A stretch of DNA of 64,000 nt, from positions 2,471,865-2,535,864 of the forward strand of contig NZ_LR594487.1 in NCBI RefSeq assembly GCF_901686465.1, given 5' to 3'. Under the pieces are notes generated by a model. It was given only the letters and a program-made list of their open reading frames with translations, was not told the DNA's origin and ran no database searches. The stretch's first letter is position 1, and every line of letters begins with the position of its first letter. Positions 1,471-52,726 of this stretch are shown one piece after another. The stretch is from Halorubrum sp. DM2. GTDB lineage: Archaea; Halobacteriota; Halobacteria; Halobacteriales; Haloferacaceae. Position numbers and translations under genes: made by a program.

Positions 1471-1545
1471 ACGCCCGCTCTCCGGTCCGCCGGGCTAAAA
1501 CCTATCCATCGTCGGTCGGGGCGACACCCACACGCCGATCGGTCG

Positions 1546-1803
1546 CGGTGGCGCGTGCCTGCGAGCGGCCGCCACCGGCGGCCGCGAAGCAGCACCGCGC
1601 GAGGGAGTCGGCGGTCCGAAGCGGAGCGGAGGACCGCCGACGAGGTTGGGGAGGCGTGAGGCTGCGGTGCGGGGCGGGATTCGAAGGGGCAGCCGCGAGG
1701 CGGACAGAGGCGACGCAAGCACCGCAGGAAGTGAACGGAGTGAACGACCGAGGAGCGCAGCGAGCGTCTGTCCGCCTCGCGGCTGGGGCTTCGGTGGTCA
1801 CGG
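1546..1803 (+). repeat. Structured dispersed repeat, copy A (candidate ncRNA)
   Basis: First of six copies. Arm I starts at the conserved GGTGGCGCGTGC and carries a CTGC/GCAG stem, a GA/GA internal loop and a GC-rich tip. Arm II is GTCGGCGGTCC paired with GGACCGCCGAC. Then comes the conserved GAGGTTGGGGAGG core and the GGGATTCGAAGGGGCAG segment. Arm III is a perfect 19-bp stem, 1690-1708 with 1767-1785. The copy ends at a GGGGCTTCGGTGGTC tail, and a second tail-like unit lies at 1840-1860, 54 bp further on. It sits between the divergent MinD-like and rhodanese genes in the sense of the latter, and fills most of the 441-bp gap. Confidence 0.85.
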
Positions 1804-1911
1804 TTGAGGAGTCCGATTCATCGAAATCAGCCGCTTATCGGGCTTCGGTGGTCTCGGTCAGCAGGTCGCTTCCGTCAGAGTGCTTTTGCTAGTAGAACGC
1901 GAGGTTTCACC

Positions 1912-5561: not shown

Positions 5562-5814
5562 CACCGCCGAAGCCCCAACCGCGAGGCGGGCGTACACTCG
5601 CTGTGGTCCTCACTCGGTCGCTACCGCTCCCTCGTTGCGGTCCTTGCGTCGTCTACGCCCGCCTCGCGGTTGCCCCTTCGAGTCCCGTCCCGCAACCGCA
5701 CAGCACCTCACACCTCCCCAGCCTCGTCAGCGGCTCCCGTTGGTCGCCGCTGACTCCCTCGCGCGGCGCTGCTCGGCCGCGATGCGGCCTCGCAGGCGCG
5801 CGCCAACCGCACCG
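5562..5814 (-). repeat. Structured dispersed repeat, copy B (candidate ncRNA)
   Basis: Reverse-strand copy between the rhomboid start and the aroD stop; it fills most of the 408-bp gap. Read on the minus strand: arm I has CTGC/GCAG, GA/GA and GGCCGC/GCGGCC; arm II is GTCAGCGGC with GCCGCTGAC; arm III is CAACCGCGAGGCGGGCGTA with its exact 19-nt complement. The arm III base changes relative to copy A are compensated on the other side. A TATA-like TTTATAAG lies just upstream (minus strand, ~5822-5830), as if the element had its own promoter. Confidence 0.85.
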
Positions 5815-24690: not shown

Positions 24691-25060
24691 GCGGTGGCGC
24701 GCGCCTCCGAGCGCCCTACTGGGCGCGAGGAGCGCCGCGCGAGGGAGTCGGTCGCCGGAGCGAAGCGACGGCGACCGACGAGGCTGGGGAGGTGTGAGGC
24801 TGTGCTGTGCGGGGCGGGATTCGAAGGGGCAGTCGCGAGGCGGGCAGAGGCGACGTAAGCACCGCAGGAGCGAACGAAGTGAGCGACGAGGAGCGCAGCG
24901 AGCGTCTGTCCGCCTCGCGACTGGGGCTTCGGCGGTCTCGGTCACAAAGTCGTTCGTGGCGAAACCAGTCACGTAAAGCCGATCGACTGGGGCTTCGGCG
25001 GTCTCGGTCACAGCATCGGTTCCGTAGTATCGAGCGGTCGAGGCTTCGGCGGCGAACACC
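24691..25060 (+). repeat. Structured dispersed repeat, copy C, with three tail units (candidate ncRNA)
   Basis: Core 24691-24945: arm I with CTCC/GGAG, GA/GA and GCGCCC/GGGCGC; arm II GTCGGTCGCC/GGCGACCGAC; arm III CAGTCGCGAGGCGGGCAGA with TCTGTCCGCCTCGCGACTG (one G-U). The 3' tail CGACTGGGGCTTCGGCGG is present at ~24918 and again at ~24984. A diverged third unit lies at ~25039, so spacing is ~66 and ~55 bp. The element fills the gap between the PHP start and the small gene ending at 25138, in antisense to both. Confidence 0.85.
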
Positions 25061-26981: not shown

Positions 26982-27315
26982 CTGAGTCTCACACGCCTCC
27001 GCAGACCGACGACCCACGTAAATCCCCGTGTCCGCTCCGTCCGACGCGATCGGCGTGGCCGCGCCACAAGAACACGCTTATCAACCCCGACACCGACGGC
27101 ACAGACGGGAACAGCACAGCTGCAGATCCGACGTGCCGGGGGCCTCTTCGCCCGCGGCTTGGGAATGTAGCAGTGCGCCGACGCCTCCGGCGTCGCGGTC
27201 GCGCGGTCCGCTCGCGCGGGCCGTCCGGTCGGACCGCTCGGTCCGCGAGGGGTTCGTAGCCGCGCCGCGCGGAGTCGCGGTCACGTTGCGGTTGTGCCGT
27301 TCCAACTCACAGCCA
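26982..27315 (+). other. Hairpin-rich leader upstream of rps15; possible structured RNA
   Basis: 334 bp without a protein gene. ACGCTTATCAAC at ~27073-27084 is TATA-like and would start an RNA near 27105, ~210 nt before rps15. The transcript would contain a perfect 7-bp hairpin with a 3-nt loop at 27179-27195. A larger arm closes with CTCGCG (27211-27216) and CGCGAG (27244-27249) around a GTCC/GGAC tip. An ACA triplet lies just before the rps15 ATG. A long structured 5' region (autoregulation by S15) or an independent ncRNA such as an H/ACA guide are both possible. Confidence 0.35.
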
Positions 27316-31760: not shown

Positions 31761-32025
31761 GCGGACGGCGCGTGCCGACGAGCGCCCGGAGGGCGCGAGT
31801 CGCACGCGCGAGGGAGTCGCTGGCGGTCGGAGCGGAGCGACGACCGTCAGCGACGAGGCTGGGGAGGCGTGAGGCGCGGTGCTGGGCGGTGTGGGGCGGG
31901 ACTCGAAGGGGCAGTCGCGAGGCGGGCGCAGGCGACGCAAGCACTGGAAGGAGCGAGCGTAGCGAGCGACTGAAGCGCACAGCGAGCGTGCGCCCGCCTC
32001 GCGACTGGGGCTTCGGTAGTGTTCG
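31761..32025 (+). repeat. Structured dispersed repeat, copy D (candidate ncRNA)
   Basis: Fills the gap between two convergent genes. Arm I: GCGCGTG/CACGCGC outer stem, CGAC/GTCG, GA/GA, GCGCCC/GGGCGC. Arm II: 13-bp GTCGCTGGCGGTC with GACCGTCAGCGAC (one G-U). Arm III: CAGTCGCGAGGCGGGCGCA with its exact complement near 31988-32006. Single tail GGGGCTTCGGTAGTG. AT-rich GAATAGACTATT directly precedes it. The CGAC/GTCG stem in place of CTGC/GCAG is a four-base compensated change. Confidence 0.85.
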
Positions 32026-45328: not shown

Positions 45329-45645
45329 GCGGCGGCGCGCGCCTGCGAGCGGCCGCCACCGGCGGCCGCGAAGCAGCGCCGCGCGAGGGAGTCAGTCGCC
45401 CGAGGCGGAGCGAGGGCGACTGACGAGGCTGGGGAGGTGTGAGGTGCGGGGCTGTGCGGGGCGGGACTCGAAGGGGCAGTCGCGAGGCGGGCGCAGGTAA
45501 CGCAAGCACCACAGGAGCGAGTGAAACGAGCGACGAGGAGCGTGGTTCAAGACGCCTTCGGCGTCTCGTCATCACGAAAGGCGCGAAGCGCCTTTCAAAC
45601 GACAGCGAGCGTGCGCCCGCCTCGCGGCTGGGGCTTCGGCGGTCA
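45329..45645 (+). repeat. Structured dispersed repeat, copy E, with enlarged apical region (candidate ncRNA)
   Basis: 317 bp instead of ~255. Arm I as in copy A (CTGC/GCAG, GA/GA, GCGGCCGCC tip). Arm II is GTCAGTCGCCC/GGGCGACTGAC. Arm III is CAGTCGCGAGGCGGGCGCA with TGCGCCCGCCTCGCGGCTG (one G-U). An extra ~60 bp near 45542-45603 carries two hairpins, GACGCC/GGCGTC and AAGGCG/CGCCTT. A diverged second tail (GGCTGGGAGTCCGG, ~45677) follows within an AGCGGCT/AGCCGCT hairpin. It occupies most of the 589-bp gap; 45700-45817 shows nothing further. Confidence 0.85.
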
Positions 45646-52388: not shown

Positions 52389-52726
52389 GAGACGACCGCC
52401 GCCGAACCCCCAGCCGATCGGCTAGCCGATTGTGTTGCTGTTTATATATCGCTGATCGAGACGACCGCCGCCGAAGCCCCAGCCGCGAGGCGACCAGACG
52501 CTCGCTGCGCTCCTCAGTCGCTCGTTTCTCTCGCTCCTTGCGGTGCTTACTTCGCCTCTGGCCGCCTCGTGGCTGCCCCTTCGAGTCCCTCCCGACACCG
52601 CCCCGCAACCGCACCTCACACCTCCCCAGCCTCGTTAGTCGGCCTCCGCTTCGCTCCGGCCGACTAACTCCCTCGCGCGTGCGACTCGCGGCCTGCGGCC
52701 GCTCGTCGGCACGCGCCACCGCATCC
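52389..52726 (-). repeat. Structured dispersed repeat, copy F, with duplicated tail (candidate ncRNA)
   Basis: Core 52460-52726 on the minus strand: arm I CGAC/GTCG, GA/GA, GCGGCC/GGCCGC; arm II GTTAGTCGGCC/GGCCGACTAAC; arm III CAGCCACGAGGCGGCCAGA with TCTGGTCGCCTCGCGGCTG (one G-U, one mismatch). The tail is duplicated: the plus-strand segments 52391-52416 and 52460-52485 match in 25 of 26 bases, 69 bp apart. TATATAA stands just before arm I. The element lies between two divergent genes and fills most of the 488-bp gap. Confidence 0.85.

Follow-up and report, generated by a model that had tools for sequence, protein, structure and literature searches.

A high-copy repeat of Halobacteria with G-A-laddered hairpins and a selected plus-strand fold

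Six intergenic copies (A–F) of one repeat lie in a 64,000-nucleotide stretch (the window) of the 3.45 Mb haloarchaeal chromosome of Halorubrum sp. DM2 (NZ_LR594487.1, positions 2,471,865 to 2,535,864), and they raise the question of what keeps GA opposite GA in a hairpin, arm I, whose stems change from copy to copy, and of whether the repeat acts as RNA or as DNA. A first-pass annotation of the window had described this loop in every copy and had taken it to favour a functional RNA with a protein- or metal-binding motif, for L7Ae for example, over a purely DNA-level repeat. Its coordinates and arm-I structure for copy A are correct (Table 1), and GA/GA is indeed present in all six copies, with an additional A 3′ of GA limited, as it had stated, to A and E. 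The outer-stem pairs that it listed were likewise all found, CTGC/GCAG in copies A, B and E, CTCC/GGAG in C and CGAC/GTCG in D and F; the outer stem consists of 3 bp with a bulged C below, and rests on GCGCGYGC/GCRCGCGC.

The same annotation had called for an alignment of many copies to see whether GA/GA is invariant. Among 69 distinct arm-I sequences from the genus, tabulated by script with a few misplaced rows corrected by eye, all 69 have GA in the 5′ strand and 68 have it in the 3′ strand too, where the sole exception (L019) has AA. The triplet pairs that flank it are of at least six types (TGC/GCA, TCC/GGA, GAC/GTC, CGT/ACG, GGT/ACC and TGT/ACA), the stems changing with compensation; the nucleotide left unpaired 3′ of GA is A, C, G or none. 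Arm I diverges beyond the genus: reading by eye, we found GA/GA in L096 and did not find it in the arm I of L090, L091 or L095.

The annotation's observation was correct but understated, as GA/GA is not peculiar to arm I and occurs also at the apices of arms II and III. In the genus, arm II apices carry GA/GA (often) or purine loops of the GGA/GGA type. The arm III apex is built of 2-bp steps with GA/GA rungs between them (GG-GA-GC-GA-AC-GAA-GT-GA-GC-GA-CC), and these modules are gained and lost on both strands together, as in L090 (GG-GA-GC-GGA-GC-GA-CC) or, with one additional rung, in L004 and L088. An alignment of 40 apex sequences had 97.1% of its cells paired, with much lower values in slid-alignment controls, and 57 double-sided changes were counted against 15.8 expected in shuffles, 0/500 of which reached as high a number. 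Class-wide, 105 distinct apices comprise 86 with at least one rung and 19 with a plain stem, and 116/124 of their internal loops are exactly GA/GA.

Table 1. Positions of the repeat and its parts in the window.
Feature	Position	Strand	Details
Copy A head, arms I–III	1545..1793	+	
Copy A arm I	1550..1600	+	GA/GA 1563-1564 / 1586-1587, additional A 1588
Copy A arm II	1608..1640	+	apical purine loop (GAA/GGA), GC pair step, triloop GGA
Copy A conserved G-rich linker, CGAGGYTGGGGAGG	1641..1654	+	
Copy A G tracts 1–3 and P0 5′ strand	1671..1689	+	GGGG-C-GGG-ATT-CGAAG-GGG
Copy A arm III	1687..1788	+	G tract 3 at 1687-1689 on one side, G tract 4 at 1786-1788 on the other
Copy A arm III apex, GA ladder	1727..1749	+	GG-AA-GT-GA-AC-GGA-GT-GA-AC-GA-CC
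Copy A P0 3′ strand, CTTCG	1789..1793	+	
Copy A tail repeat	1840..1847	+	G tract 4 and P0 3′ strand again
Copy B head	5568..5810	-	GA/GA 5790-5791 / 5773-5774
Copy C head	24691..24931	+	GA/GA 24709-24710 / 24727-24728; tail unit up to 24997
Copy D head	31761..32015	+	GA/GA 31780-31781 / 31797-31798
Copy E head	45329..45638	+	GA/GA 45347-45348 / 45370-45371; arm III with double-hairpin insert
Copy F head	52472..52722	-	GA/GA 52703-52704 / 52686-52687

The core of the repeat runs in the order GGG-Y-GGG, a 5-nt P0 strand, GGG, the arm III hairpin, GGG and the second P0 strand. P0 is a strongly covarying 5-bp helix: in 171 copies, extracted without pairing as a condition, its variable pairs were both kept in 166, with four pair types (CAAAG/CTTTG in 61, CGAAG/CTTCG in 56, GAAAG/CTTTC in 43 and GGAAG/CTTCC in 6). 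P0 and arm III are nearly always separated by a GGG/GGG internal loop; in another subclass, to which Haloglomus and Halonotius belong among others, this loop is GG/GG, and both upstream tracts are likewise GG. Tracts 1–3 measured 3,3,3 in 148 of the 171 copies, 2,2,2 in 10 and mixed lengths in 13, and counting tracts 3 and 4 as pairs gave the same equal-length pattern. In sequence, then, the repeat has the four G tracts, alike in usable length, that a G-quadruplex needs, and the joint shortening of all four to GG, which is what a quadruplex would require, is suggestive at the level of sequence; descent of the GG subclass from a single ancestor could account for it too. Spinach and Mango are G-quadruplex RNAs flanked by two helices, and like them the repeat has G tracts in an internal loop between two helices, with more tracts close by; unlike those aptamers, however, the repeat is natural, and its quadruplex is only putative. 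It is possible, though less likely than not, that the repeat is a natural fold of RNA or ssDNA found throughout the class at about 100 copies per chromosome, in which tandem G-A ladders would be joined by a 2–3-layer G-quadruplex lying between the two helices, with the cell's molar potassium as stabiliser.

Folding differs between the strands. Both strands of copy C fold better than shuffles, with z scores of -5.6 (+) and -3.2 (-), and the + strand of copy A also gave -5.6; in the stems of arms I–III, moreover, + strand wobbles and A-C mismatches (wobbles on the opposite strand) stand at 28:8. Taken with GA/GA invariance between compensating stems, this wobble bias supports selection on the single-strand fold of the + strand. 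Such selection does not discriminate RNA from ssDNA, so that the earlier preference for a functional RNA over a DNA-level repeat stands in part: a + strand-specific fold is selected, but GA/GA by itself does not favour RNA, since the same rungs occur in the left ends of TnpB transposons. If palindromes were instead maintained solely through gene conversion or the inversion of DNA hairpins, the single-strand fold being unselected, one could explain why some arm II hairpins are block-inverted (positions 407278, 2215428 and 2438492) and why arms are exchanged wholesale among orthologous sites; yet GA/GA is not self-complementary and is nevertheless held on one strand in three arms, and the ladder covariation and wobble bias also go against this reading, which is largely refuted and which we consider highly improbable.

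The kink-turn offered as an example by the first-pass annotation fares still worse. A kink-turn RNA bound by L7Ae would account for the invariant tandem G-A pairs beside the stem of arm I, but the 3-nt bulge that a kink-turn has between its C stem and the G-A pairs, 5′ of GA, is present in 0/69 sequences, and the occasional extra nucleotide is single and lies on the opposite side of GA. Nor would a single kink-turn explain the rungs stacked in ladders elsewhere, and of all the readings considered we hold this to be the least probable.

The repeat is abundant and widespread. In the chromosome a strict pattern matched 111 copies (56 forward, 55 reverse; reversed control 0), which sets a lower bound on copy number, and matches were present in 52/52 genomes of the genus. 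With a stricter pattern for the class, the core motif at the arm III apex was found in 111/292 genomes and 39/77 genera of the class (control 0), among them Halorubrum, Halonotius, Haloglomus, Halomicrococcus, Natronococcus, Halorussus and Halosimplex; phage records gave 0 matches, and plasmid records 3 weak ones. In an Rfam scan of the window and five further loci at both thresholds the repeat had no match, the only hits being chance miRNA hits and an unrelated S15-Halobacteria ribosomal protein leader (RF03143; window 27105–27176). The literature that was searched contains no description of the repeat, and among the matches listed for its sequence strings none came from a haloarchaeal paper.

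Several features accompany individual copies. In copy E, arm III contains an insert of ~60 nt with two hairpins (window 45548–45602), and comparable double-hairpin inserts were seen in arms of L021, L070, L088, L149 and L239 and in the TnpB left end of L263. Tandem units of 51, 66 or 69 nt lie 3′ of the head at window 1794–1860 and 24932–25000 and in L003, L060, L075 and L078, and each unit has GCGGCTGGGGCTTCGG once more, which may serve arm III as a substitute 3′ partner. Most unit lengths are divisible by three, and the minus strand of the units resembles a repeat protein (..AARLY..TAEAP); looking for a coding relic in these units, we found neither consistent start codons nor long ORFs. In L107 a GGCGGTCGTGGAGTT repeat array (~760–900) follows immediately 3′ of the element.

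Comparison of sites shows both presence and absence. At site A, the element and its flanks occur in this genome and in G040, while in about nine congeners the same flanking genes are only ~80–160 bp apart; at site B, three more congeners have elements with different arms; and at another site 18/20 congeners have an element whose arms are wholly different and whose frame is the same. An apparently clean empty site beside the L032 gene was discarded, the seemingly empty L251 having another right neighbour, and syntenic empty sites are too diverged to fix the boundaries or target of the element. Gene context in 57 copies was convergent in 28, co-directional in 22 (11 per orientation) and divergent in 7, that is, enriched between convergent genes, scarce at divergent ones and, at co-directional sites, equally frequent in either orientation. 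Among the neighbouring genes no transposase-like family recurs; the only recurrent group is one small cluster of four. A TATA-like motif at -12 to -15 was found in 58/115 genus copies compared with 7/115 further upstream, a fixed position that fits transcription or target preference; as the promoter of the full element it was rejected, being too near for the usual archaeal spacing.

The end hairpins of IS200/IS605 elements are in general read as single-stranded DNA, and the repeat has features in common with the left ends of such transposons. A hairpin with GA/GA rungs occurs at the TnpB left end in ~10/30 class loci, for example CCCCTTCC-TCAAGGA-GC-GA-CC-AGA-GG-GA-GC-GAGTA-GGGAGGG, and the haloarchaeal IS200/IS605-type TnpB elements (IS1341) share with the repeat the rungs, the 3-nt loop and, in several cases, GCAnCGCA...GAGnAGCGCAG; the motif GCAnCGCA-ladder-GAGnAGCGCAG is common to arm III and three TnpB loci (reversed control 0). 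A blast of a TnpB left end against class copies gave 91% identity over 35 nt (E 3e-8), and in L274 a GG-subclass element sits immediately upstream of the left end of a TnpB transposon, in the hairpin of which GAGGTTGGGGAGG occurs, the string also seen in the linker of the repeat. Convergence could nonetheless have produced the common GA rungs. The repeat, consisting of a ~250-nt head and a tail, is too short for TnpA or TnpB and has neither tnpA nor tnpB; TnpB right ends (GTAGGGTGGGGTAGTTCAC) do not resemble it, and the transposons for their part have no arms I and II and no P0/G-tract core. TnpA (Y1) transposon loci had no ends matching the element, and four genus genomes without Y1 transposase have 11–22 strict copies each. 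Like the repeat, sotRNA/omega RNA (RF02656, RF02657) is a structured RNA linked to the same transposon group if the repeat is RNA at all, but it originates from the right end, and neither family matched in the window or the five further loci.

The PATEs of Haloquadratum are transposase-free palindromic elements related to IS605-type ends, into whose palindromes small repeats insert (PMC3119063). Both they and the repeat lack a transposase, reach high copy number in divergent copies and have near-terminal palindromes akin to IS605-type ends (PMC3119063), and the double-hairpin inserts within arms recall PATEs with SMR-A elements. Neither has terminal inverted repeats of its own. PATEs are further marked by boundaries that can be defined, by a short target on the 5′ side and by insertion that does not duplicate it. 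The repeat differs, in a comparison with PATEs by description only, in its three arms, GA ladders and G-tract core, and the terminal oligonucleotide and target were not found for it. A small subfamily (L014, L067, L072, L089 and L146) sits within a MITE-like unit whose terminal repeats, GGCTCTGTTGAAATCC, resemble the ends of the IS6 family. IS6-type MITEs have terminal inverted repeats and an 8-bp target duplication, and one might view the repeat as being carried by such MITEs, given a few copies with one or both repeats outside the head and the 7/8 match of the 8-mers at the two ends of L014(-), on reading. Allowing up to 4 mismatches, however, both ends occur in only 4/167 copies, where they belong to the surrounding MITE, and one end in 12; carriage by MITEs is thus refuted as a general mode and improbable as an explanation of the repeat, though it may explain the small subfamily.

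More weight attaches to the reading of the repeat as a structured RNA family, an independent sRNA or a 3′ region element, which would be transcribed and act at many loci, with its GA rungs and G-rich core binding protein or ions. It agrees with the strand-specific fold and wobble bias, the kept P0 pairs, the class-wide conservation of the core, the upstream TATA-like motif and the retention of the element at one site in 18/20 congeners despite fully changed arms. Against it, sense orientation is not preferred relative to co-directional genes, usual TATA-to-start spacing would place the start within arm I, and the identical rung design occurs in transposon left ends. We hold this reading tentatively, as the second choice.

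The GA-rung design common to transposon ends tips the balance towards a mobile ssDNA element, and we favour, at a probability of roughly 0.45, a high-copy, transposase-free, PATE-like element of Halobacteria whose + strand would fold as ssDNA and which Y1 or another mobiliser would move in trans; the choice between it and RNA is close and open. This reading starts from what the sequences show, namely the fold, the GA invariance, the copy number, the class-wide spread, the presence or absence at one syntenic site and the hairpins shared with TnpB. The + strand folds by itself into three hairpins, which G-A rungs in tandem and an internal loop rich in G hold together; we infer that the acting form is single-stranded, its hairpins being recognised by a Y1-type transposase or another mobiliser in trans, with GA/GA serving as non-Watson-Crick rungs that may give the hairpins a shape for recognition. 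Insertion would be into intergenic DNA, copies being tolerated chiefly downstream of genes, and arms would later be swapped among copies through recombination. Several points count against a mobile element: for no insertion could exact boundaries or a target site be defined, and the occupancy of one site in 18/20 congeners looks more stable than that of a busy mobile element. The unlike right ends of TnpB elements, the TnpA loci without matching ends, the strict copies in four genomes that lack a Y1 transposase, the possible convergence of the GA rungs and the TATA-like motif at a fixed position weigh on the same side.

The repeat has no Rfam entry, although a single archaeal chromosome contains >100 copies of it and half the genera sampled from the class possess it. 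It offers hundreds of natural variants with co-varying non-Watson-Crick G-A rungs and G tracts, with which rules of structure at very high salt become testable. Were the RNA reading true, discrete + strand transcripts from many copies would begin upstream of GCGGTGGCGCG. TnpB transposons, for their part, are the ancestors of Cas12, and the rungs that they have in common with the repeat may reveal how archaea recognise their single-stranded ends.
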